Positions 2,000-60,627 of a stretch of DNA of 64,000 nucleotides are shown here, piece by piece (the first letter of the stretch is position 1; each line of letters begins with the position of its first letter). The DNA comes from Caenorhabditis elegans (lineage: Eukaryota > Nematoda > Chromadorea > Rhabditida > Rhabditidae): assembly GCF_000002985.6 (NCBI RefSeq), contig NC_003279.8, positions 2,542,001 through 2,606,000 of the forward strand, read 5' to 3'. The translations under genes were made by a program, and so were the position numbers. The notes beneath the pieces were generated by a model. That model was given only the letters and a program-made list of their open reading frames with translations. It made no database searches and was not told the DNA's origin.

Positions 2000-2772
2000 T
2001 AGCTGAGCTATAGCTCAGCTATAGCTCAGAAGTGCTATGAACTGCGGATCTGGGATTCAGGTACACTACCTGGTAGGGCTGTGCAGCTTTTTTTCCTCAA
2101 AATTCAAAAAAGTAGGCGTGGCCAACCAATCAGCTGTTGCTTCTTATTTTCTTATTGCTCAGCTTAAAATTTTACAGCCTCTAATTGGTTGAGCACGCCC
2201 ACTATTTTGAAATTGACCAATAACAAAGCGAGAAACTCCTTGTTTTTTTCCGCAGACTATGGACGCTTCCGCACGCGGGAAGTTCCCGTTTTCCGCAGAC
2301 TATGGACGCACCATTACAACCTCACTCATTCTCACTGAGATGTAAACAAAAAACAAAAAAGTGGTGATCTACCAAAATTCCAAAATTTTTGTGCCACTTT
2401 TTTTTAATAAGACTAGAGTACCTGTGGAAATTGAATTGTGAAAAATTGACTCTGTGCCTCCAGCAATCTTCTCCCCTGTGAAAAATTAATTGCACACAAA
2501 AGTTGAAAAAAAGTTGGCGTGAAATTAAGATTTTCTGAGAAATAGTCACATTACACCCAAAAGAGGCACCATCTAATCAGGCGCCAAAATTCAAAATATT
2601 CAAATAACAAGTTCATTCAGAAACAAAAGAACAAAAATTGAATTGACCAAATATATTTAGTTTAGCCATTCGCTGTGCGGCAGATCAACGAACTAATTCT
2701 ATTGATCCTCACTTCTCTTTCGGACGGTTTTCTGTTCTTTTTCGTGTCATTCAATTTTCCCCCTCTCTTCCC
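2000..2772. other. Intergenic, upstream of the 2.8-kb gene
   Basis: No gene supported. It holds a small palindrome (about 1998-2030), CCAAT-like boxes near 2120 and 2215, and a 19-bp direct repeat, TTCCGCAGACTATGGACGC, at 2248-2266 and 2291-2309. The second half is presumably the promoter region of the following plus-strand gene. Confidence 0.5.
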
Positions 2773-4493
2773 ATGAGTCTCACCCATTTTCTATTCGTTT
2801 TTGTTTCCTTTTCGATTGCATTTTCTGATGATTGTGATGGACATTACGATCTGGAGTACGGATGCAATAAACTTTCGTTGGATTTGATTCGAGACTGGAT
2901 TTCGAATAAGCCGTTGCCCTCAGTCAAAGCAGCGCAGTCCCTGTATTCAGATTGCAGGAGAGCGTTGGTAAGTTTTGTGGGTGCAAATGCGCTCTACTGA
3001 AATTAGTGGGTGTTGTGCGGTAGAGCTTCGGATCAGAGGTGTATGGACCCCCAAAAAACTAATTATTTAAATTTGAAAAAATGAAAAAAAAATTATGTGG
3101 GTCAGCAGGGTGGTGGCGTTCTTATAAGTTTTCTTGATTTTTTTTCGCGGTAGATCCCTTGTTTTGTAGAGAAAAAATTTCTGGAAAAAAGATTCAGAGA
3201 TCCCAGCAATATTTTCGACTCCAAAAAAAACCACCGAAATTTCACAAAACTTCAGTAAAATCCTTTCTAGAAATAATTGAATTTTTCTTTTAAAAAAACT
3301 GAACGCACAAATTTCGGATATAACTCCCATTTCACGTGGTGTCAGACTGTCCCATTTCGATTTGATCTACGTAGATCTACAAAAAATGCGGGAGAAGAGA
3401 GGCAGAGTTTTCAACTGATTTCGCATGGTTAAGAACGTGCTGACGTCACGTTTTTCTGGGCGTAAAATTCCCGCATTTTTGTTGGTCAAACTGTAATGGG
3501 ACAGCCTGACACCACGTGTCATTTGATATTTGCATATTTTTTTATCAAGCTTTCAATCAATTGTATTATAGTTGAGAATTTTTAATTTTTCCAATTAGTT
3601 GTAATCAAATAAACCAATAAAATCAATATTCCAGAGCTGTACAAAATCTCTAAACTGCGACAAAAAAGACAACGAAATTTCGAAGAAAATCACGGATCTG
3701 GACGAACTTTGTAATGGAATTGGCGCATTTGGATCATGGTTTGGATATTGTATTCCAAAGGTATTCCAAAAAGACTAAAAGAGACAAAAACTGAAAAAAA
3801 ATTCAGATTCAAAATGCCATCACATTAATGGAGTGGCCGTGCTTAAGCCATTGGAATAATGCGGTAAGATTTCTTTTTTACATAAGTTTGAATTTTGCGT
3901 GCTGTGGAGCGCATTTGCATTACAAATATATGATTTTTAGGCACAACTTCCAACATGCGAGTATTTCGAGGCTGACAATGAATGCAAGACAATGCCAATA
4001 GAAAATATATGCGGCCCCCGTGCCGTCAAAGAAATGCTGGATAATGAGAATTTTATTCGTGAATATTTTGGATGCAACAGGATCTACAAGCCTTCAAATA
4101 ATTCTAGTAATAGCTTGAAAATCAAAATTTCAGGTAATCCTAATTCGAAATGAAGATGTTTGAAGAATGAAGGCAATTTTGAAACTTTTATATAATGCAA
4201 TTTTGTGCTATCAACTAACTAAATGTTGACCAGATGACAACTTTTTCCTACTTCTCAACATTTTAGAGATAATCTCTGCAAGCATCTCAACAAGTCGGCC
4301 GCAGAAAAAAATGACCAATTTTTCATATATCGTTAAAAACAAGCTATCAGCTCACAAACTATCTCAAAATGGATGTATCGCAAATTTTGAATGCACTTTT
4401 TATTTAAAACATAAAGATGCACTATTAGCTAGCCCCTACAGTGGGGCTGAGCTCCTTTTGGGGCTGTGGCTGGTCTCCAGCCCCACTTTTTGA
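2773..4493 (+). CDS. Secreted cysteine-rich protein, T20D4.11-like (DUF19) type
   Basis: Five exons give a continuous frame: 2773-2967, 3635-3760, 3807-3863, 3941-4133 and 4267-4493, about 265 residues. Residues 1-18 are a clear signal peptide (MSLTHFLFVFVSFSIAFS). The mature part has paired cysteines including an LCNGIGAF..CIPK block and a later ECK....ICG block, matching the layout of the secreted proteins at 4966-6327 and 11094-13326. The family is nematode-specific, secreted and of unknown function. The last exon is least certain: it ends in a hydrophobic stretch (ELLLGLWLVSSPTF) that could be a GPI-type signal or a wrong exon. A MITE sits in intron 1. The gene converges on the minus-strand relative downstream. 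Confidence 0.7.
3333..3518. mobile_element. MITE with CACGTGGTGTCAG termini
   Basis: A complete 186-bp element in intron 1 of the preceding gene. Terminal inverted repeats of about 24 bp (CACGTGGTGTCAGACTGTCC and its complement) enclose a palindromic interior with the motif AAAAAATGCGGGA and a central TGACGTCA. The same element is partly present at 49313-49440 and carries a nested insertion at 56911-57297. No coding capacity. Confidence 0.8.
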
Positions 4494-4965: not shown

Positions 4966-6327
4966 TTATGGCTGATTTTCACAAGTCATCACTTTGACCT
5001 TATCCTCATTCTTCAACATATCCTCCCATGCTTCATCTCCGCATTGCTCTTGAACAACCCGTTGAAGCTCTGAAAACTCGTCAGGTGTCAACCAGCACTT
5101 TGGTTTATCCTCTCCAATCGTCGTGTTTTTCAGAGTAGTTACGTCGAATTTTGTCTGAAATAAAATGTTCTAGAGGATCTTTTTCGGAGAAGCTTGTAGG
5201 TACCTTTTCCATGCATTTACTGAATGGTCCGACTTTTAAGCCCAAGTCTTCACAGGCGGATCTCATGAACATTGTTCCGAATCTCAAAATACTTTTTAGT
5301 AGCTCTGGGATTTCCATTGATTCTACGCAGTTCTGAAAACTTTTAATTTTTTAAATATCAAAAAAAAACTAAAAGTGATGTACCAAATTTTGGGCGTGGC
5401 CTCTGATGCTCATAATTTTTTTGGGAGCCGTTAAACGGGCGTGGCCTTTCGTTCCGCCCACTTCTTGGTTGTGATCACAGAAGCTCTATCCAGTAGGCTT
5501 CCACGCAGGCGCAGAGAAGCCTACCTCGCCCGCCTTGTGGCGACCAAACCATTTTTCCGGAAATTGGTAAATTGGCAGATTGCCGAAAATTTTGGGCAAA
5601 TTGTGCTTTTGCACAATTTTTTAAAGGAAATTTCAGAATTTCAATTTCAATCGGCAGATTTGTACGTACCTTATAAATTTTCCTACATATATTTTGAAAA
5701 GTGAGCAGATTCTATGAAAATATTTAAAGAAAACGGGAAAATTTTCAAAAAAGCACAGTTTTAAGTGTTTCCGTCTTATGAAAAAATCCCTTTAAAAACT
5801 TCCGGCAAATCGGCAAACCGGCAATTTGCCAATGTGCTAAATATTCCTTCTCGCCATTGTGTAGAAAAATGTTGAGAGGCCAGAGGCTGAGGCGGGCAGG
5901 ATGAAGGCAGGCCCTGAAACCGCGCCTGCCTCCCATGGAATTTTTTTTGGCATTATTTGAAACGAATTTAATGTTCACAAACTACATTTGAGAAAAATTG
6001 GAAATCGGTGGCCGCAGAATTTCTAGGCCACCTACTACTTTTGCAGAAATTTTTTGTTGAAAATTCAATATTTTTCGAAACTCTATTTTTCAAATTTTTG
6101 CTGAAAAAAATAAAACTAACCGTTGTGTCAATGCACATATGATAAAATGTTTCCAAATTACCAATTTTCACATTTTTGCCGTGTTTCGTAGTTTCCAGCT
6201 TCAAATTATTCAAAATATTCTTCATTTTGTTGAGCTTCGTGAGACAATTTTCATAGTTTGTTTGTTGCCCGGAGACAATGGAAAAAACGAAGAAAGTCGA
6301 GAGAAGGAACAAGAGAATTTTGGCCAT
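4966..6327 (-). CDS. Secreted cysteine-rich protein, T20D4.11-like (DUF19) type
   Basis: Three minus-strand exons, all phase 0: 6327-6121, 5332-5204 and 5154-4966, giving 174 residues. A signal peptide (MAKILLFLLSTFFVFSIVSG) is followed by QQ. Cysteine blocks MCIDTTNC, CEDLGLKVGPFSKCMEK and KCWLTPDEFSEL..QCG align by eye with the gene at 11094-13326 (KCQEATDC, CQILNFNTGEFAICTEK, ECRLSDNEFSKL..KCG), so the two are paralogues of near-equal length. Function is unknown; extracellular location is inferred from the signal peptide. Intron 1 contains a repeat element. Confidence 0.8.
5541..5860. mobile_element. GGCAAATCGGCAA-type non-autonomous element
   Basis: In intron 1 of the minus-strand secreted-protein gene. 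It shows the family hallmarks: CCGGCAAATCGGCAAACCGGC ends, and an interior with TTTCAGAATTTCAATTT, GTACGTACC..ATTTTCCTACATAT and a run read as TTTCCGTCTTATG. Flanks carry GCCTACC/GGCAGGC motifs seen elsewhere in the window. Confidence 0.7.
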
Positions 6328-7295
6328 TTCGGTGTATAAATATTGAATAATAACAATTGAATAGCAGAAGAAGAAGAAATGACCTATCGAAAGATATATC
6401 CCTCGTCTCCGTGAAGATATATCTTCCCGGGAGATAGTCTCTGAAGTCGGGAAAACAAATATTTTGAGGTCAACGGATTCATATTTATTAGGTATAGAAA
6501 TATCGATTTTTCCAATGGAGAGATGGGGAAAATCGACTTAAATTTTTTTTGTAGTTTTTTATCTGCCATCTATATTTTTTAAAGGGATATGCCAAATTTG
6601 TTCAAATTTTTTTCAGAAAAATTCAAAATTTCTGAGCAAAAGTTAGTGGGGAATTAAAATTTGAAACAACGGAATTTGGTGGAAAATTTAAATCTTCTGT
6701 GGCAAATATTGGCGGGAATTTCAAATTGTTTGAGTTAATGGGAGGGAATTCAAATTTTCTGAAACAAAAATTTTGGCGAGTAAATTCAATTTTTTTGAAC
6801 AAAAATTGACGAAAAATTTTAATTTTCTCAGAAATTTTTTTGCGGGAGCTTGAAATCTTTAAAGAAAAACATTTGCGGGTAATTCAAATTTTTGATTTAA
6901 AAAAACTTGACGAGAAATTCAAATTTTCTGGGAAACTTTTTTTTTGGCGGAAAAATTGAATTTTCTGAGGAGAAATTAGTGTTGAATTAGAAAAAAAATT
7001 TTTAAACAAATTTCTGAAACAGAAATTGGCGGAAAACTTGGTCACACCACATTTTCTTAGGCCATCTGTGACGTCACTCCTCTTCCAGCCGAGATCAACA
7101 AGAGACCACTGTAAAAATTATCTAAAATTTTACTTAAAATTTATTTTTCAAAAATATTAAAAAGAAAAAAATTAAAATTAAAAAAATGTCAATGACCGTG
7201 CTGACCTTTCTTATCAAATAATCAAATCTCAACTCACGGGACCACAAATCTTGTTCGGCGAAAAATCAATTATTTCGAAATTTCGACTCTTCACA
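6328..7295. other. Intergenic, degenerate short repeats
   Basis: Divergent promoter region. Positions 6600-7030 hold an ill-defined tandem pattern of GGCGGGAATTCAAATTTTCTGA type, roughly 45-bp spacing and strongly diverged. At 7068-7087 lies GTGACGTCACTCCTCTTCCA, a motif recurring elsewhere in the window. No gene is supported. Confidence 0.5.
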
Positions 7296-10610: not shown

Positions 10611-11093
10611 CCACTCCAGTCATCCTTTCGTTTATCTGTATTAAAAAAATTTCTCATGGCCTAGAATCCTATAAAACTCGGTCACGAGAACACTCAATAT
10701 TTTCGGAGCAATTTTCGCCTCTTTTCTTTCAGCTTTAATATCCATGACCTAGAATTCTGCAAACCTCGGCCATCAATAATTAATGATACGTCCTCCTAAA
10801 CAAATACATCAAAGTGAAGGATCAAATGAAAATATTTGCGGTAAGAATAAAGATCATTTGATCAAAAAGTGTCGTCGTATTCTTTGTCTAATCTCTTTTT
10901 CTCTTTGTCCCCCCTCCCCTCCTGCCATTTTCAGTCAATTAGTCATTAACTCCTCTTACGTAACCCGTCCCTCCCTCTCTCCCATTAATCTCCCTTGTCC
11001 CCTTCTGTCCCCCAGTGTCACACCTAATTTCATTCGACATCGCAGAGCTCTGCTCATTTGCTCCGCCGCTCTAGCTCCAGCTCCAACACACGC

Positions 11094-13326
11094 ATGTTCA
11101 ACTCTCCGTTTTTGGTACTCTTCGCTGCTCTGCTGCAAATTGGCTTTTCGAGTATTTCAAGTGGAATTCTGGAATGCTCGGCTAAGCTTCAAGTTTTTAC
11201 CGATCATTTTGAGCAGTTTAAGCAGGACTTCTCAACGATCACCGATAAGAATCGCGAACGGTTAAGCCTGCTCTACAAATGCCAAGAAGCCACTGATTGC
11301 TATATGAAGCTTGAGCAGCTGCATCCGACGTCTAAGGAAATCAAGAAGCTGGTCAATTTTGTTGAGAGGAACCAGGTGCCTATTTGTCAAATCCTGAATT
11401 TTAACACTGGAGAATTCGCGATTTGTACGGAAAAAGTAAGTAGTTTTTGGGAGGAATTTGCCAAACTTTTGGCAGCCATCGGACTTTTTAGAACTTTTAA
11501 TATTTCCTGTATTCGGCAACTTTCGACAAAAGGGGTTTTTTTTTCTTGAAAATTGAAAATTAATGAGCTCGGCAAGTTTTTTTCTCGAAAAATTCTCGAA
11601 GAATTTAAAAATTGTATTCTTTTCCAAACGTCTCCAAAACATTAAACTGTCCACAAATATTTTTTGGATCAATTCTAAAGGCCCAGAGAAAAGTAAAAAT
11701 GTACTGGAAAAATTTTAAATTAAAATTTAAGGTTTAATTCAATTTTTCTTATTTTTTTAATGATTTTTTTAATTTTGAAAAAATTAAAGGGAGGGCCGAA
11801 ATATTTTTGAATTCCTGCGCAAAATTACTGGTTGGTTTTTATTTATTTTTTCTTTGTTTTTTTTATAATTTGACACATAATTTTTCAGGCTTTTTTCGCA
11901 AACAAAAACGATTTTTAACGTAAAATTATCGATTTCTAGGCCAATTTTAAGATTTCTGCAAGTTTCTTCCCAACTAAAAAGTTTAGAAAATTTTTATGAA
12001 TTGTTTTGCAGTTATCAATTTACTATATATAAAGCGCGTGTCCTTACGACCGTTTGTAGTTTGTAGTTTGATCTTTGATCTTTCAACTCTCTTTTCTGTA
12101 GTTGGAAGTTGTATTGGGTTGGGAGTTGGTGATGGATAATGCCAAGCTGTAGGTATACGGTAGGGTTACTGTAGTTTGGGAAAAATTGAGTTTTTGTCTA
12201 CAGAAGAGGTATTGGGTTGGGAGTTGCTGGGGGATAATGTCAAGGTACTGTAGTAGTACTGTAGGAGAACTGTAGGTATACGGTAGGGTTACTGTAGTTT
12301 GGGAAAAATTGAGTTTTTGTCTACAGAAGAGGTATTGGGTTGGGAGTTGCTGGGGGATAATGTCAAGGTACTGTAGTAGTACTGTAGGCATACGGTATGG
12401 TTCCTGTAGTTTGGGAAAAATTGAGTTTTTGTCTACAGAAGAGGTTTTGGGCTGGGAGTTGCTGGGGGATAATGTCAAGGTACTGTAGTAGTACTGTAGG
12501 AGTACTGTAGATACACGGTAGGGTTACTGTAGTTTAGGAAATTTTGAGTTTAATACGTTTTGAAGAAGTGTTGGCTCGGGAGTTGGTAGGGAATAGTGTC
12601 AAGGTACTGTAGTGGTACTGTTGGGGTGCTGTAGGATTATTGTAGGATTATTGGAGTTTGGTTGAAAATTGCGTTTTAAGTTTTTGAAAATGTATTGGCT
12701 TGGGAATTGGTGAGGATAATGTCAAGATATTTTGATAGTTTCTTGCTTAGAGTCGGGAACATTTGGGAAGATGTGAAAGTTTCATTATTTTTTCATAAGA
12801 CATTTTTGAATGATTGTGTCAAACATTTCAAATGTTGCCAGTCGTTGGCCGCGCCGTAGGCGCGGTCAGCGGCTGGTATAACATATTTATGATATTGCCG
12901 GAAATCGCAAAAATATCAGAAATGACGTCAATCCTTTGCGCCGTAATTCAAAAATAATTCAGCTTTTTTTTGCGAACTTGAAAAAAAATATTTAAAAAAA
13001 TTTAGAAAAATTTTATAAAATTTTTAACAGTTATATTTGGTATATTGGGACGGTATTCTGTCATAGTTTCGAGGTAGCTCAAAATAACTTGCGGTCATTT
13101 TTTGGCCACTAATTTTTTATTATTTTTTTAAATTCAAAATTTTCAGGAGAACATTGACGCCGCCTACATCCGGAATCATGTCCTGGAGCCTGGTTCTTCA
13201 GAATGTAGATTGTCAGACAATGAATTCTCAAAATTGGAAAAGATAATCGATGCAAAATGTGGACAATCAGCTCTCAAAAACCTTCAATTACATTCAAATT
13301 TTGTACGAAATATTTTGTGTCCTTGA
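11094..13326 (+). CDS. Secreted cysteine-rich protein, T20D4.11-like (DUF19) type
   Basis: Two phase-0 exons, 11094-11435 and 13147-13326, encode 173 residues. MFNSPFLVLFAALLQIGFSS is a signal peptide. Cysteine blocks (KCQEATDC, ICQILNFNTGEFAICTEK, ECRLSDNEFSKLEKII, KCGQSAL) match the minus-strand gene at 4966-6327 in order and spacing. That gene carries one additional phase-0 intron, inside the part encoded here by exon 1. The 1.7-kb intron here is unusually long and filled by a minisatellite. Role unknown; likely extracellular. The pyrimidine-rich tract just upstream of the ATG could contain the trans-splice site. Confidence 0.82.
12090..12740. repeat. Intronic minisatellite, unit about 115-123 bp
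   Basis: Three well conserved and about three diverged copies of a unit containing GAGTTTTTGTCTACAGAAGA, TTGGGTTGGGAGTTGCTGGG, AATGTCAAG and a variable run of GTACTGTAG sub-repeats. The GTACTGTAGTAGTACTGTAG sub-repeat is the same motif found at 52560-53020. The 131-codon minus-strand frame here is a by-product of the repeat. Confidence 0.85.
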
Positions 13327-14251: not shown

Positions 14252-15425
14252 ATGTTGCGTTTTCCCTTATTTTTCGTGTTATTTCTCAAAGCCTCCAGCT
14301 ACCAGCTAGTACCAAGTGACACACCTGGACTAGGTGAATCAAGGACGGCATATGATGATTTTATGGATATTCTAAGAACTTCTGCCCGGTAAGTTTTTGT
14401 TTTGAAATTTTTACGTGATGCACCATGTTATCCTTCTAGATGTTACATGTACTTCGAGCAATTGTGTGAAGGCAAACATTATGGGAAAGTTGCAAAATGT
14501 GCGGAAGAAATTCGAAGAGATCTTTTTGAGGTTGGTGAGCTTTTCTAGGCCACGTAGCTCGATGGAGTGTCGTAGTATGAATATTTGGAAAATTTTCAGC
14601 AATACGTGGAATTCCGTACATGTGAGCTGACAGAAGATACAATTCGAGACATTTTTAAGGTGTACTGTCAGGCGAAGAGTTATGTACCACTTGCATTAAA
14701 TATTTGGATTCCTCCTCCATTTCTAGAAGGAAGTTATACATGGGATTTGAATCAAGAATCTCCATATAATGTAAGTATTTTTTCTCTGAAAATTATTTTG
14801 AATGAACTTTAAAAATGTCTTCCTCAGAGTGTAGGCACGATTCACAGTTTACCAAAAAAAATTGCACTTCAGCGCCTTTACCACATGGCTCGTCAGGCAG
14901 AAAATCAATATATGGAGAAATTTCAACAACTCAAAAATGAGCAATTGGCGCAATCTGAGAAAAAACGGGATTTGGATGAATTGGAATTTTTTCTTCGGAG
15001 ACTAACAACTTTCTGGTAAGCTCTACACATTATTCATTTGCTCACAAAGATATCAGGCCCGTGGAACGTTGGCCGCATTATAAGTTTTTGGCACCTGCCT
15101 TCCTGTATATACGCAGCCGACATTTTACGGGCCCTGCGATTGTAGTCCCATGAAAAATTGAAATAATTTCAGTTTGTGGATGATGTTTGGATCGTATTCA
15201 GTTCTAGTAACCGTGTCAATTATTAAAACTATCTACTTCAATCATTATTTTTATATCATTCAATACGAAGAAGGTGATGATGACGAAGTGGACGAAATAA
15301 TGCGACGAGAGCATAAAATAAATAAGTGGTTGTACAATATTTCCATGATCGTTTTTATTATTGTATTCTTGGCTAGGGAATATCTCAAATGGAACTATGC
15401 CCTAGATATCAAATACTTGTTGTGA
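14252..15425 (+). CDS. Tandem family member 1: lumenal domain plus two-TM protein
   Basis: Exons 14252-14388, 14440-14530, 14600-14770, 14873-15015 and 15173-15425; 264 residues. Signal peptide MLRFPLFFVLFLKASS; conserved YDDFMDILRTS; cysteines at CYMYFEQLC; YCQAKSYVPLALNIWIPP; YTWDLNQESPYN; then YHMARQAENQYMEKF. A membrane span (LWMMFGSYSVLVTVSII), an acidic loop (EEGDDDEVDEI) and a second span (WLYNISMIVFIIVFLAREYL) follow. Exon lengths 91 and 171 and all phases are identical to the next two genes. Exon 4 could also begin at 14828, adding 15 codons; 14873 is preferred because it matches both paralogues. Product family and function not recognised. AATAAA follows the stop. Confidence 0.82.
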
Positions 15426-15482
15426 TTTTTAATAAAATAAATTATGAATATCAATGAATTTTTGACTGAACAGCATTTATAG

Positions 15483-16048
15483 TGGGGCGGCAAATTGCCG
15501 ATTTTCAGATTTTCAACAAACTCGGCAAACCGGCACATTGCCGGAAAAACGGCAAATGCTGAAACTTTCCGGCAAATTGTGGGGTTGCACTTTTTTTTTA
15601 AAACTTAATCGGCAATGAATCTTTCTATCTTAAAAAAAACAAATTCTATGAAAATATCTACAGAAAACGGCGGAAAAAAAAATTCAAAACGGAACAGTTT
15701 TAAGGGTTTCCGTCTTATAAAAAAATCCCTCTAAACATTTCCGGCAAAATGATATCCGGCAAACGGCAAATCTGTAAATTGCCGGAATTAAAAATTTCTG
15801 GAAAATTGGCAATTTGCCGGAATGGAAATTTTTTGGTAAATCGGCAATTTGCCGGAATTGAAAATTTTTGGAAAATTGGCAAATTGCGGAATTAAAAATT
15901 TCTGGAAAATCGGCAATTTGCCGGAATTGAAATTTTCTGGCAAATCGGTAAATTGCCGGAATTAAACATTTTTGGTAAATCGGCCATTTGCCGGAATTGA
16001 AATTTTCTGGTGAATACGGCAAACCGGCGACTTTCCACCAACCCCAGA
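15483..16048. mobile_element. GGCAAATCGGCAA-type element cluster
   Basis: Fills most of the gap between family members 1 and 2. GTGGGGCGGCAAATTGCCG opens it and GGCGACTTTCCACCAACCCC closes it. The right half is a ladder of about 35-bp units (CCGGAATTGAAATTTTCTGG). The interior carries TTTCCGTCTTATAAAAAAAT. Confidence 0.7.
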
Positions 16049-16194
16049 TTTATAGGGAATCTCTAAAATCGAAATTTAAATTTGAGATTTCTTTTTTAAA
16101 AAAGTTTTCACACGTGATGAACTCTTGTTTTCAACAAATATTTCTGCATGATTTCAAGTATTTTGGTATATTTTCATCGGGCAAATCAAGAAAA

Positions 16195-18110
16195 ATGTTG
16201 CGTTTTCTTCAATTTTTCATTCTCCTTATTCGTTTATCCAAATCGGATATTTTTGGATCGCCGGAACTTGTGGAACCGAGGACTGTCTACCATGATTTTA
16301 TGGATGTTATTTCAACTTCGGAGTCGTAAGTTATTAGTAGTTCATAGTTAAACGAGATGTTCTTGTTCGATGCACCATGTGTCTTATTCAATGTTGGCAA
16401 CTTATATAGTGGCTCATTTCAGAAAATATTTTCTCGGTTTAAATTACTTTGTTAAGCTCAAAAACACCAAGACATGAGTTGTCAACAATAAGCGAGGCGT
16501 TCGCAGTCGATGCACCATGTGCATCCAGGTTCATTTTGTAGTTATCAGTAGGGTTTCAGGGCCTGACTATTTTTCACATTTTTAAGTAAATTTATAAATT
16601 TCTAATTATCTTATTTCTTACTTTCAACACTTTCAGTTGTTCGGACTATTTTGAGCAAACCGTGGCCACGTTGAACCATTTGAATCGATCCAGTTACTCA
16701 GAAGCTATTAGCCAAGATTTGTTCCAGGTTTAAAGAAAAAATTTTAAAATGTGCCTAACTTTGTTATTTCCAGGAATACATTAAGTTGCGTAAAGGTGGA
16801 CTGACGGAAATTGTGATAGAGCAAATTTTGAATTTGTACTGCCAGGCTAAAAGACACTTGCCACAAGCAATCAATAGTTGGATTCCTCCATCATTTCTGA
16901 ACGGGAATTACACAGGGGATTTGACAGGAGATTCTCCATATAATGTAAGTGTGCAAAACCTGAAGCCACTCTAAAAAGAGCAACTCGTTGTCAGAAAATT
17001 GCGAAAGACAGAAAATTAGACCAAATAGGTTATGGGAACATATTCGAAGTTTGCGGCAAATTTGTCGAATTTACCGTTTGCCGATCTCGACCAATTTGTC
17101 GATTTTGCCGTTTTGTTTGCCTTGGCAAATTTGTCGAATTTACCGTTTGCCGATCTCGGCAAGATCGCCGAATTTGCCATTTGTTGATCTCGACAAATTT
17201 GCCGAATTCGCCGTTTTGTTTGCCTTGACGAATTTGACGAATTTGCCGTTTCCAAAATTTGCCGTTTGCCGATCTCGACCAATTTGCCGATTTTGCCGTT
17301 GGCCGAGCTCGTCATATATGCCGAATTTGCCGCTTTCCGAGCTCGGCAAATATGCCGAATTTGCCGTTTGCTGATCTCGGCAAAACTGCCGAATTTGCCG
17401 TTTCCCGATATCGGCAAACTTGCCAAATTTGCGGTTTGCTGATCTCGGTAAATATGCCAAATTTCCCGTTTGCCGACATCGGCAAATTTGCGGAATTCGC
17501 CGTTTGCTGATCCCGACAAATATGCGGAATTTGCTGTTTGCCGGGCTCGGCAAATATGCCAAATTTGCCATTTGCTGATCTCGGCAAATTTGCCAAATTT
17601 GCCGAATTTGCCGCACACCACTGGCAAATATATTTGTTCCAGGACGATTACCACCTGGCGAAAAACAAGGGAGATGTGTTTATGGCCGCCTATCGAACTC
17701 ATAAAAACAACAAATTGGCTGAAAAACTCAAGACATCCACTGATTTTCCATACAAATCGGATTTACTCAAGTAAGTTAATTTCACTTTATAGCACTTGAA
17801 CTTCAATTTCTCTTTCAGATTCTACCGTCTATCTGCCTGTATTGTACTTTTGAGTCTGGCATTGAGTCTGCAAAATGTTCTCCGAATTTTCTATGAGAAT
17901 CAGGAAGAGGATGATGATGACGAAGATTATGATGATGAGGAAGAGGATCAGGGAAATGGTGGATATGGGTTCTACGCTGAAATCTACTTGTGTGTGGTCT
18001 TTGGCCTGTCCTTGATCACTATTTTGATATTGATTAAGGAACTTGAAAAAATATTATTTCTAATCTACATGAGCCTTCTATTTCGTAAAATATATCTTCC
18101 CAGAAGGTGA
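16195..18110 (+). CDS. Tandem family member 2, C-terminus altered by frameshift
   Basis: Exons 16195-16325, 16637-16727, 16774-16944, 17643-17770 and 17819-18110; 270 residues. Signal peptide MLRFLQFFILLIRLSKS; YHDFMDVISTS; CSDYFEQ; YCQAKRHLPQAINSWIPP; YTGDLTGDSPYN; DDYHLAKNKGDVF. First span LSACIVLLSLALSL, then a very acidic loop (DDDDEDYDDEEEDQ), then a second span (VFGLSLITILILI). The last residues, FRKIYLPRR, diverge from the sister exon at 22996-23278 because of a one-base length difference; the sister-like frame continues for 64 codons past this stop. So the allele may be truncated. Intron 4 is filled by a minisatellite. Function unknown. Confidence 0.78.
17055..17620. repeat. Intronic minisatellite, unit about 36 bp
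   Basis: About 15-16 diverged copies of TTTGCCGATCTCGGCAAA followed by TTTGCCGAATTTGCC, in intron 4 of family member 2. The unit itself contains inverted pieces, so both strands lack stops and produce long spurious frames (up to 228 codons). Related in sequence to the dispersed GGCAAATCGGCAA element and probably derived from it. Confidence 0.85.
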
Positions 18111-18291
18111 AATTCAAAATCTGGAGCTGCGGAAACAACATGGATGTAAACTAATTTATCGGTACAATAATAAAGGAGGGTATTGTAAAATGCAATTTCT
18201 GCCTTTTAGGGTACCCACCAGAACGTGGCGGGTGAGCGGATTGGGCTATAAGACAAAGATATGCCAATTAACAATATGCACACTTGAATAA
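18097..18291 (+). pseudogene. Frameshifted former C-terminal coding tail of member 2
   Basis: Offset by one from the frame that stops at 18110, an open frame of 64 codons begins FPEGEIQNLELRKQHGCK and ends TLE-stop. It matches FPRGKIRNLELLEQHGCK encoded at about 23038-23091, with nucleotide similarity continuing through AATAATAAAG. The region before it is aligned in the coding frame, with one extra base (CTATTTCGTAAAATATATC versus the downstream copy). This is best read as a lost tail after an indel, or a read error in one copy. Confidence 0.6.
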
Positions 18292-18399
18292 AAGGAGCAA
18301 TTTTTAAACATGTGAAAAATGGGTTCATGGTTCACGTCTTCAAAAACTTGAATTTCTATTATTCATTTCTTCATATTCAAATCCACATAAATCAGAAAA

Positions 18400-19820
18400 A
18401 TGTTGCGTTTTCTCGTTCTTTTCGTGCTCTTCTTCGAATCCGCCAATACCCAACTAGTGCCACGTGCCTCACCTGAATTTGGTGAAAGCAGGACGGCTTA
18501 CGATGATTTTTTGGACATTCTGAGGTCTTCTACGCCGTGAGTTATTGATTCTTTGTTTTTTTACTTTCTACAGCGCTTTGCCAGCTTTCCGCGGCAGGTT
18601 GTCAGTTTTTTGCAGAATTTTGCCAGCTTTCAGTGTATAGAATATTTCCAATTTTCTGCAGAATTTTGCCAAATATCTGTCAAATTTTGCCAGTTTACTC
18701 CAAAATTATACGAACAAGCTTAGAAATTTAGCCAACTTTCTATAGCACTTTGTCAGCTTTCTTCAAAATTTTGCCAATTTGCAACAGAATTTTCCAACTT
18801 TCTGCAAATCATAGACAGCTTTCTGTAGAATTTTGCCAAATATCTGTCTACCAACTTTTTTCTAATGCACCATACGTATTCTTTCAGTTGTTCTACATAT
18901 TTCGACGCATTATCCAAAATCATGAATCGCCCAAACCTTACAAGCCGTGCGGAGGAAATTCGAGCAGTTCTTTCCGAGGTAGACAGATTTTATTTTTACC
19001 TATTGCCGAATTAAAAATTTTCAGCATTTTATGGAAATGCACAGCAGCGGTCGAAACTTGGAATTAATCAGAGATATTTTGAATTTGTACTGTCATGCGA
19101 AGAGTTATGTGCCACTTGTGTTGAATAATTGGACACCTCCGTCAGTTCCAGAAAGAAATTATACATGGGATATGAATCAAGAGTCTCCATATACTGTAAG
19201 TTTATTTTGATGAGTCGAAATTCAAAAGTTTTCCTTGCGGAGTAAAATTAAACATCTGTTTTTTTTTCGAAAATTAAGGAAGTAGGCGGAAGGCAGGCGT
19301 GAGGCAGGCCAAATAATAGCAGATATCCTTACAAAAACCAATTCCAGATTCACTTTCACTTGGCGAGACAACTAGAAGAAAAATATATGAACAAATTTAA
19401 AAAATATAAAAAATTGGCACTGAATAAAAATAATTCGGAAAGGGAATCTGGTTATACCTACGACCAATTGGCTAATAGGTAATTCAATCTCCCGCAGGTT
19501 TATTCAAAATTAAAAAATGTTTCAGATGCCGCATACTGATCGCACTTATGGTAGTTCAAGTGACCTTTGCTGTCCTTAGAAGTGCATACCATTTCCATTA
19601 TTATTATATTGATCGATATGTATTTGGAGAAGACATTGAAGAGGATGAATTGGGTGAAGCGATAAGACGAATAGATGATGGATATAATTTGATGTATTGT
19701 TTTTTCGCTATTTTAATTATTTTGTTGTGTCTGGCATCGGAATATGTTAAGTGGATTTACGGTTTTGATGCTAAGTATGCGACTCAATATGTTTTCTCCT
19801 TTGATGGTATAAACTTGTGA
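18400..19820 (+). CDS. Tandem family member 3: lumenal domain plus two-TM protein
   Basis: Exons 18400-18536, 18888-18978, 19025-19195, 19348-19478 and 19526-19820; 274 residues. Signal peptide MLRFLVLFVLFFESANT; YDDFLDILRSS; CSTYFDALS; YCHAKSYVPLVLNNWTPP; YTWDMNQESPYT; FHLARQLEEKYMNKF. First span ILIALMVVQVTFAVL, acidic loop (EDIEEDELGEAI), second span (LMYCFFAILIILLCLASEYV). Exons 1-3 have the same lengths as member 1 (137, 91, 171). Closest to member 1. Starts 290 bp after the stop of member 2, so co-transcription is conceivable but unproven. Function unknown. Confidence 0.82.
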
Positions 19821-20667
19821 ATATTCAATCACTTTTCTATCTGGAAAAAAAAATTTCAGTAAAGCTGGACTTACAGATAAAGAAGCGGTGTACGGCAATT
19901 GTCAACCGGCTATTCTACAAAATGAGACCGACATTTTTCATTAAAATATAACGGTATTTACAATATATAATAGAAAAATCTTTGATTCATTTGAAAATAA
20001 CTTTCATTTGACTTTTAAATACCGAGAGAGTGCTCAAAAATTGTCGAAAAATTGGCGGCAATTTTCACCGGCAATTTTCAATATTCGGACAATTTTTGAA
20101 TACTTTTTCGGTTGTTCCAAGTCAAATAAAAATTATTTCCAGATAGAGCAAATATTTTTCTATATTGTATCTTGACAATTTTTTATTGAGGGTCAAAAAG
20201 CAGCAATTACTAAGTTTTTGGCACTTTTTGAGAAATCTATATCACTATCGCATGCTCGAACTCATACAATGTTTGAATAGTGGAAGGAAAATTTTTTTGT
20301 GCGATGACATCCAAAAAAGTGGCAAAAACTGAGATTTTTCCAATTTACAAAAATCATATGCAATTTTTTTTAAAAATTTTGAATGTTTTACTATGCAATT
20401 TGATCATCGTTGTGCCATGTTTTAAGACAATTTCCAGCTGGTGCAACTCTACATTTAAACCGTTAAATTTTAATTTTTACTATTTTTGTTTTCAAGGTAT
20501 TTGTTAGGAATAAAAATTTTAAAAAAGTTTAAACAATTTCTCGTGTACAACATGAAAAGGTTATTTAGTACATCTTGATAAGAAAGGGTATAGATACTTG
20601 GCGAAAACCGTAATCAAATCAGTCTTCAAATTGCCAGTACCAAACGACCAACAACCCAAGCTGCAAC
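19821..20667. other. Intergenic, ssp-19 promoter region
   Basis: No gene supported. The part nearest 20667 carries a GATA site and a TATA-like TATAGATA, consistent with a sperm gene promoter. The 75-codon frame at 20280 is not supported by splice signals or similarity. Confidence 0.5.
20577..20582 (+). promoter_or_regulatory. GATA site upstream of ssp-19
   Basis: GATAAG 86 bp before the ATG, followed by TATAGATA about 10 bp on. Nematode MSP-type genes are known to depend on a nearby GATA site bound by ELT-1-class factors; the use of this site is inferred. Confidence 0.5.
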
Positions 20668-20997
20668 ATGTCCCTCACTGCCGATCCACCAGCCTGCACC
20701 GTACCAGCTGCCGGAGTTTCCTCCACCCACAAGCTCGTCAATGGTGGAGCCGAGAAGATCGTCTTCAAGATCAAATCATCGAACAACAACGAGTACCGCA
20801 TTGCACCGGTGTTCGGATTTGTCGACCCATCTGGATCGAAGGATGTTGTGATCACCCGTACTGCTGGTGCACCGAAGGAAGACAAGCTGGTCGTTCACTT
20901 TGCATCAGCGCCAGCTGATGCTACTGATGCTCAAGCCGCTTTTGTTGCAGTGGCTCCAGCTGGAACTGTCACCATTCCAATGTCGGCCACCGCCTAA
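20668..20997 (+). CDS. ssp-19: MSP-domain sperm-specific protein
   Basis: Intronless 109-residue protein consisting almost wholly of a major-sperm-protein (MSP) immunoglobulin-like fold: DPPACTVPAAG near the start, GGAEKIVFKIKSSNNNEYRI in the second and third strands, PVFGFVDPSGSKDVVITR, and a final TVTIPMSATA. Proteins of this class act in sperm, as cytoskeletal or signalling components of amoeboid sperm. No signal peptide. GC-rich codon choice is typical of highly expressed worm genes. AATAAA lies just after the stop (about 21032). The symbol is from recognising the sequence and its neighbours; another ssp paralogue cannot be excluded without alignment. Confidence 0.9.
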   Translation: MSLTADPPACTVPAAGVSSTHKLVNGGAEKIVFKIKSSNNNEYRIAPVFGFVDPSGSKDVVITRTAGAPKEDKLVVHFASAPADATDAQAAFVAVAPAGTVTIPMSATA

Positions 20998-57988: not shown

Positions 57989-60627
57989 ATGTTTCGAATT
58001 GCATCCTCTTCTTACTCTCAATTCATTGCTTCTGGTAAGCTTGCTTTTCTCAAAATTTCAAAAAAAATAAGTTTTTCAGCAAACCCATCAATCCAAACCA
58101 GATGTATTTCTATTGCAAGAATTGATCAAAAAATTAAACGGTAAGAGACACTCAGAAGCTAGATCAGCCAGAAAAATGAAAAAATTCAAGTGGAAATTCC
58201 GATCGCCGAGTGATTCACGCCAAGAAGTTCACCAAACAAACCGATTCACCGGCCTCTGTAGCTGGAGACGGATTCATTTTGAGCAAGACGTTTCTTCAAA
58301 ATGCGATTGCTCATCAGCCGCCGTCTGGATTGACACCGGTCGGGAGAGATGGTGGACGGGATGAAAAGAAGCTTATATTGCATCCAAAGTAAGTAATCAT
58401 CTCTCACCTGTGCCCGAAACCCGGAAGACGTCGTCCGCTGGGCACAGGGTGTGGCAAACCCCGGGAGATGTCGGCCGCCGAGTTTGCAATCTAAGTGCAT
58501 ATTCCCTATTCCAGAGAAATCGTCGAGCACCTGAACAAGTACGTGGTTGGCCAGGAAGAAGCCAAGAAGTATCTGGCAGTTGCTGTCTATCAGCATTACC
58601 GACGAGTTGAGAACAACCTGAGAGTCACTGAGGTTTGTAAGCTCACAATTTTCTGTAGCTGGTTGGCGCCCGACACCTACCGGTTTTCTCTGCTTGCTGC
58701 GAAAGGTCGGTCGATGCACCATGTCTCATGGCGAAGCGGCTAGCTTTACCTGGAAGGCACAACGATGCCTGTCTGCCTTGTATTGTCAGTTGTCAATTTG
58801 TGCTAGATTTTTGCGGCCGACGGCAGCCGGGTTCCGCTGCTCGTAGATGTCTGTCGATGCACCATGTTCTAGAGACCCTACTTCCGCTACATGGTGCATC
58901 GACCGACATCTGCCGGGTTGTAGGATTTCTTAGGCAGACACATAAGCAAGCACATGTGCCTATTTATATGCCTGCCTACCATACCTACCTTTTTAGCAAT
59001 GGATGCTCTCTGAAGCAGTGGCCGCCGCCAAGGAACGTAAGAAGATGAGAAAACAGAACCCAGAAGAGGAGGAATACTACCCGGAGTACGTCCAAAAATC
59101 GCAGCGTCAAATCCTCAAGGATCTGGAGAAGCGTCAAGACATGATACTCGACAAGTCGAATATGATACTTCTCGGAGCATCCGGCACCGGAAAGACGTTC
59201 ATGACTCAGAAGTTAGCTGAAGTTCTGGATGTTCCGATTGTGATCTGTGACTGCACAACGTTGACTCAGGCCGGATATGTTGGTGATGACGTGGATACGG
59301 TGATTCAAAAGCTGTTGGCCGAGGCGATGGGCGATATTGAGAAGTGTCAGAGGGGTATTGTGTTTTTGGATGAATTTGATAAGATCTACACATCCTCGGA
59401 TCCACTGCACACTTCCGGAAATCGGGGTATGCTTTTAATTTTTGATTTTTTTTTCTTTGAATCTAAAGAGTCCGATGCACCATGTCCCGGAGGCGCCTGC
59501 TTCTGCGACATGGTGCATCGACCACAATGCAGACAAATAAACGGTAGGCACGCCTGCCTACCACGCCTTCAAAAAATTCAAATTCAAATTTCAATTTTCC
59601 AGATGTGAGCGGAAAAGGAGTCCAACAAGCCCTTCTGAAACTTGTCGAAGGAAGTCTTGTAAAAGTGAGAGATCCACTAGCCCCAAACTCGAAAGTCACA
59701 ATTGATACTAGTAACATTTTGTTCATCGCATCCGGAGCATTCTCGAATATCGAGCATATCGTTGCGAGACGGATGGATAAGAGGTTAGTGACGTCACTCC
59801 TCTTCCACTTTCCCCAATGACGTCACCTTGTCGCAACTTGGCAGGGCGATTGTATTTGTCTTCCATCTGTGAGTTGTTCGTGGCCGTGGAAAATTTTCAG
59901 AAGGCATTCTCTAAAAATTAATGAGAAAACGAGGATTTTATAAATTGTGAGCTAAGCCAATATTTTTTCAGAAGCCTTGGCTTCCTATCCGCAACTTCCC
60001 CGCACAAACTTGGCGACCAGGATACGACGGAAAAGCTTCGTGATTCGGATGAAGAGATCGTCTCGAAAGCCAGAAATGAAATGATTAAGCAGTGTGATCA
60101 AGGGGATCTCATATCGTAAGTAGATCACTATCGCTGATAAGAAGACACAGTATTTCCTTCCAGATTCGGGATGATCCCGGAACTTGTCGGCCGCTTCCCT
60201 GTCATTGTTCCCTTCCACTGCCTTGACAAGACCCACCTGATGTCGGTGCTCACGGAGCCCAGAGGAAGTCTGATTGCTCAAACAAAAAAGTTTTTTGAAA
60301 ATGAGAATGTGGAGCTGAGATTTTCTCCGGCGGCTATTGAAGCGATTGCCGAGATGGCGGTGAAGAGAAAAACCGGCGCACGAGCATTGAAGTGGGTCTT
60401 AACTACGTGGCCGGGTAGTGTAAAAACTCGGCCACCAACTTTTTACGGGTTCGTGAAATATTTTTGTGTTTTTCAGAAGTATTGTGGAGAAAGCAGTGAT
60501 GAATGCGAAGTACGAGGTGCCTGGATCAGATGTGAAATGCGTCGAGATTACTGACCAAAATCTGAAAGATCACAGCTTCACTGTCATTGAGAATCAAAAT
60601 GTGATTGGAACTGAGAACACGAATTGA
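57989..60627 (+). CDS. Mitochondrial-type ClpX AAA+ unfoldase paralogue
   Basis: Nine exons: 57989-58034, 58080-58140, 58191-58388, 58515-58632, 58997-59426, 59603-59783, 59972-60115, 60164-60391, 60477-60627; 518 residues. ATP-driven unfoldase that may feed ClpP in mitochondria. N-terminus is Ser/Arg-rich, like a targeting peptide. ClpX marks: [20 protein letters not shown], Walker A GASGTGKT 201-208, pore loop GYVG 234-237, Walker B IVFLDE 262-267, [17 protein letters not shown] from 285, SLGF (ClpP-contact-type loop) 346-349, [13 protein letters not shown], sensor-2 GAR 464-466. The N-terminal four-cysteine zinc domain typical of ClpX is absent, and the basic RKH-type pore loop is replaced (LAPNSK). 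A faster-evolving paralogue is likely. Confidence 0.93.
58706..58908. repeat. GATGCACCATGT hairpin element, intron copy 1
   Basis: In the ClpX-like intron 4. A single arm lies at about 58712, and a full hairpin at 58853-58905: GTCGATGCACCATGT, a 20-odd-base loop, then ACATGGTGCATCGAC. Confidence 0.7.
59468..59523. repeat. GATGCACCATGT hairpin element, intron copy 2
   Basis: In ClpX-like intron 5: CGATGCACCATGTC, loop with GGAGGCGCCTGCTTCTGC, then GACATGGTGCATCG. Followed by GGTAGGCACGCCTGCCTACC. Loop end TTCTGC resembles TTCCGC of copy 1. Confidence 0.75.

Follow-up and report, generated by a model that had tools for sequence, protein, structure and literature searches.

What do the three adjacent genes between positions 14252 and 19820 of the window, the whole 64,000-nt stretch of Caenorhabditis elegans DNA analysed here, encode, and what could their products do? 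An earlier note had described them as a tandem trio of an unrecognised family, secreted or with two transmembrane spans, and had suggested that an acidic loop between the spans might bind calcium. The interval that we obtained, from the ATG at 14252 to the last stop ending at 19820, is the same as in that note.

All three genes lie on the plus strand, at 14252-15425, 16195-18110 and 18400-19820. Their spliced models have open frames and predict proteins of 279, 270 and 274 aa, and GT..AG borders are found at the predicted splice sites of 12 out of 12 introns. Gene 1 is assembled from exons of 137, 91, 171, 188 and 253 bases (14252-14388, 14440-14530, 14600-14770, 14828-15015 and 15173-15425), gene 2 from exons of 131, 91, 171, 128 and 292 bases (16195-16325, 16637-16727, 16774-16944, 17643-17770 and 17819-18110) and gene 3 from exons of 137, 91, 171, 131 and 295 bases (18400-18536, 18888-18978, 19025-19195, 19348-19478 and 19526-19820). 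The cumulative exon phases 2,0,0,2,0 are common to the three genes, so that the five-exon layout, the fixed lengths of exons 2 and 3 and the matching phases that had been proposed are all borne out by models with intact frames.

Two details of these models deserve mention. Exon 4 of gene 1 contains, 45 bases in, an in-frame predicted acceptor at 14873; its use would shorten the exon to 143 bases (14873-15015) and drop 15 residues that are mostly unmatched in the paralogues in the protein alignment. Judged on this alignment, a start at 14873 fits the paralogues better and is more likely than one at 14828. Gene 3 has an optional predicted splice from 19807 to 19860, which would swap its last residues for a longer basic tail. 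With regard to a possible common transcript of genes 2 and 3, 289 bases separate them and an AATAAA begins 59 bases past the gene 2 stop; the 150 bases before the gene 3 ATG contain no YYYCAG acceptor, and a weak AATCAG lies directly ahead of that ATG.

The homology of the three proteins is evident by BLASTP, with 41% identity over 280 aa between genes 1 and 3 (E 6e-68), 39% over 178 aa between genes 1 and 2 (E 5e-41) and 34% over 192 aa between genes 2 and 3 (E 1.4e-35); together with the gene structure, it establishes a tandem trio of one family, as first described. A per-exon profile search of the window recovered the three copies for every exon at E 3.4e-19 or better and no convincing further copy, the next best match having an E of 0.18; none was found either in two 10-kb stretches flanking the window on the left (best E 0.057). 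NG86 estimates of dN/dS are 0.39 for genes 1 and 3, 0.33 for genes 1 and 2 and 0.28 for genes 2 and 3, rough values because dS (1.1 to 2.5, with infinite estimates for the C-terminal columns in two of the three pairs) is near or past saturation. Such dS values indicate that the copies are old, and the ratios of 0.3-0.4, read with this saturation in mind, suggest purifying selection. Divergence is unevenly distributed: dN amounts to 0.30-0.49 in the ectodomain columns vs 0.58-0.98 in the C-terminal columns, the C-terminal half diverging faster than the N-terminal half, which keeps a Cys pair and the sequence motifs.

All three proteins begin with MLRF and share a YC(Q/H)AK block and a W(I/T)PP block (YCQAK and WIPP in exon 3 of gene 1). 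The first motif, YDDFMDI in exon 1 of gene 1, reads YHDFMDV in gene 2; of the blocks initially listed, MLRF, YC(Q/H)AK and WxPP thus stand in the three proteins, and YDDF(M/L)D(I/V) is amended to Y(D/H)DF(M/L)D(I/V) because gene 2 has a histidine. The ectodomains have one Cys pair in common. Potential N-glycosylation sequons occur in the ectodomain of gene 2 (residues 60 and 119) and of gene 3 (62, 111, 121 and 161), and none in that of gene 1. Hydropathy reveals two C-terminal hydrophobic spans in each protein, all encoded with the intervening loop and the stop by exon 5, and in gene 2 an extra hydrophobic window overlapping the second span. The N-termini look like signal peptides by eye, with a 19-residue hydropathy scan flagging one of the three (gene 3). 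The initial label of secreted or two-TM proteins can consequently be kept for the spans and the signal-peptide-like starts (by eye), with "secreted" better replaced by membrane-anchored. The loop between the spans contains 9 acidic residues out of 28 in gene 1, 16 out of 29 in gene 2 and 10 out of 34 in gene 3, its boundaries being placed by hand from hydropathy; these counts agree with the 9-16 announced. Charges flanking the spans give no decision on topology. With a cleaved signal peptide, the loop would lie on the cytosolic side; a signal peptide left uncleaved would make a protein of three spans.

The search for relatives outside the trio was extended to several collections. Neither the three whole proteins nor gene 1 queries limited to exon 3 or to the C-terminal part retrieved another locus in the same genome at E below 0.1, in searches that could miss a remote paralogue because they were made with single sequences, exon by exon. 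Single matches on other chromosomes (E 0.334, 0.11 and 0.893) were taken as chance. No protein of the trio matched Pfam-A above the curated cut-off, and exon 3 alone gave no Pfam-A match for any of the three members; the best Pfam match, DUF3270 (E 0.0043, 17.7 bits vs a cut-off of 25), and another to DUF3742 (E 0.34) were put down to chance. The same holds for an NCBIfam match to GadX (E 0.0061, one of three members), NCBIfam being a weak test because its names are bacterial and archaeal. Against PDB sequences, the best match had an E of 0.13 and gene 3 alone gave none; matches at this level and above were likewise considered fortuitous. Among pattern matches, 0 of 96 in viral contigs and 0 of 81 in prokaryote genomes were confirmed as relatives. 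The family therefore remains unrecognised against Pfam-A, PDB sequences and, for what that test is worth, NCBIfam.

Adjacent copies with the same exon layout, found by single-sequence searches at one locus, make the trio a tandem single-locus family. Tandem gene families lacking a known domain are well known from nematodes. Like those nematode families of small membrane proteins that are tandem and restricted in taxonomic range, the trio combines adjacent same-strand copies, a shared gene structure and the lack of a known domain; it differs from them in that its copies number only three and were found at a single locus. It is an uncharacterised local tandem family of the ordinary duplication kind, with no evidence of a new system, and adds a cleanly modelled three-gene family without match in the domain libraries searched. 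In the literature matches listed for C55C2, K07A3, ssp-19, DUF19/T20D4.11 and sperm membrane or species-specific tandem families, the trio is not named, a comparison that could miss mentions under the genes' own names; two of the papers on clone C55C2 concern C55C2.1 (scrt-1).

The explanation that we favour as a whole, with a probability of roughly 0.35, combines a trio of paralogues with the architecture of membrane glycoproteins and a function in recognition or adhesion. Its first part, architecture and family status, is very probably correct. Each gene would encode a small membrane glycoprotein whose signal peptide is presumably cleaved, leaving a domain of roughly 160-180 aa, closed by one putative disulfide (C47-C99, gene 1 numbering), facing the lumen or the outside. 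The two-span tail would serve as the anchor, with the acidic loop in the cytosol and a short C-terminus outside. The sequons of genes 2 and 3 and the retained loop acidity favour this picture; the missing sequon of gene 1, the single N-terminus flagged by hydropathy, the extra hydrophobic window of gene 2 and the possibility of an uncleaved signal weigh against it. For the second part, the proteins may act in recognition or adhesion at a surface or on vesicle membranes, the folded outer domain binding a partner. The acidic loop, tolerant of sequence change, could hold a basic cytosolic partner by electrostatic attraction, or serve in sorting, rather than bind calcium. This is the most likely mechanism that we can propose, and a distinctly doubtful one.

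A more specific function is offered by the neighbourhood. The next gene downstream of the trio, not a member of it, lies at 20668-20997 on the plus strand and is ssp-19, encoding an MSP-domain sperm protein (PF00635, 4.9e-24). The encoded protein matches PDB 1row over residues 1-109 of 109 (E 1.8e-66), which we take to be SSP-19, and the gene is presumably C55C2.2. PMC3343087 cites a published structure of SSP-19 and includes ssp-19, at -15.7, in a table of SPE-44-regulated sperm genes. This adjacency makes sperm expression of the trio a testable guess: its members might be sperm proteins of the spermatid surface or the membranous organelles, employed in sperm activation or gamete contact, a possibility that we regard as somewhat unlikely. 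The tandem arrangement and the faster-evolving C-terminal half would suit such a role. However, the argument is one of neighbourhood only, and physical neighbourhood is all that the trio has in common with MSP-domain sperm proteins such as SSP-19 (109 aa), the Pfam-A scan giving no MSP-domain match in the trio. The upstream neighbour is of DUF19 type, and a GATA site is not shared among the 150-base upstream regions, with 0, 0 and 1 occurrences for genes 1 to 3 and 2 for ssp-19. Should expression prove specific to sperm, the trio could be considered for a role in a step of nematode fertilisation that is still unexplained; if not, it would simply join the other lineage-restricted tandem families. 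Going further, one may imagine that the three genes beside ssp-19 encode sperm membrane proteins that are found in worms only and diversify rapidly, whose cytosolic acidic loops tie the membrane to a basic partner, for instance the MSP cytoskeleton, and whose outer domains take part in gamete recognition, but this scenario is highly speculative and very improbable.

The trio as membrane-anchored recognition proteins also has to be weighed against the proposal that calcium is bound by the acidic loop. The 9 to 16 acidic residues of the loop speak for this proposal. Acidity is a feature of the loop in each protein, with binomial P values against ectodomain composition of 0.018 (gene 1), 8e-8 (gene 2) and 0.007 (gene 3), extreme in gene 2 only. 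On the other side, the acidic run of gene 2 is partly derived from an 18-bp tandem repeat (17904-17948), and the exon-5 alignment contains a single invariant acidic loop position, acidity being retained while most of the loop sequence is not. No EF-hand profile matched any of the three proteins in the Pfam-A scan and no other domain match passed its cut-off, and the loop would probably face the cytosol. Calcium binding by the loop, as raised in the earlier note, is thus very improbable.

Equally improbable is the derivation of the trio ectodomain from a diverged DUF19 (PF01579) domain of the neighbouring secreted DUF19 genes. A DUF19 gene does lie about 3 kb upstream (frame 11028-11549, 23.6 bits vs a cut-off of 23.2), and DUF19 resembles the trio as a small Cys-containing domain of secreted type behind a signal-peptide-like start, present in tandem copies elsewhere in the genome. 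However, the DUF19 profile matched none of the three proteins at E up to 1, and a profile-profile comparison, weak for remote kinship because the trio profile holds three sequences only, returned a probability of 0.3% over 10 columns; the trio differs further by its two hydrophobic spans and acidic loop, and its ectodomains share 2 Cys, vs 9 columns in which over 70% of a DUF19 set have Cys (13 stretches out of 30, 17 with stops having been dropped). Pfam scan and profile comparison together disfavour this kinship. By eye, more small Cys-containing genes of secreted type are visible at 2773-4150 and 5105-6537; a weak DUF19 match below the cut-off (E 0.0099) falls at 5105-5350 on the minus strand, and 2647-3000 and 5968-6537 have no profile match.

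The non-coding parts of the locus carry several repeated elements. ATGCACCAT is present in the first intron of each gene, and a family-specific intron-1 element was considered; it was rejected as not specific to the trio because GATGCACCATG occurs 1371 times genome-wide (vs 9 for the reversed pattern). Among the first 30 of these 1371 sites (plus strand of C1, with some local near-duplicates), about 13 bases are common and the flanks are otherwise unrelated. The dispersed motif can be written TCGATGCACCATG; within the window, the exact 11-mer GATGCACCATG is found at 14417, 16369, 16509 and 58713-59519, with the 9-mer only at 18865. Judged from these sites, TCGATGCACCATG seems to resemble a protein-binding site more than it does a transposon, and the literature matches listed offer no evident account of it. 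CACGTG, of which the window holds 13 copies, stands at -65 from gene 1 and -84 from gene 2, with none within 150 bases of gene 3. Units of 34-35 bases related to TTTGCCG/CGGCAAA are arrayed over 17057-17613, within the third intron of gene 2, and over 15768-16022, between genes 1 and 2, and a 21-base tandem repeat (18607-18846) occupies most of intron 1 of gene 3.
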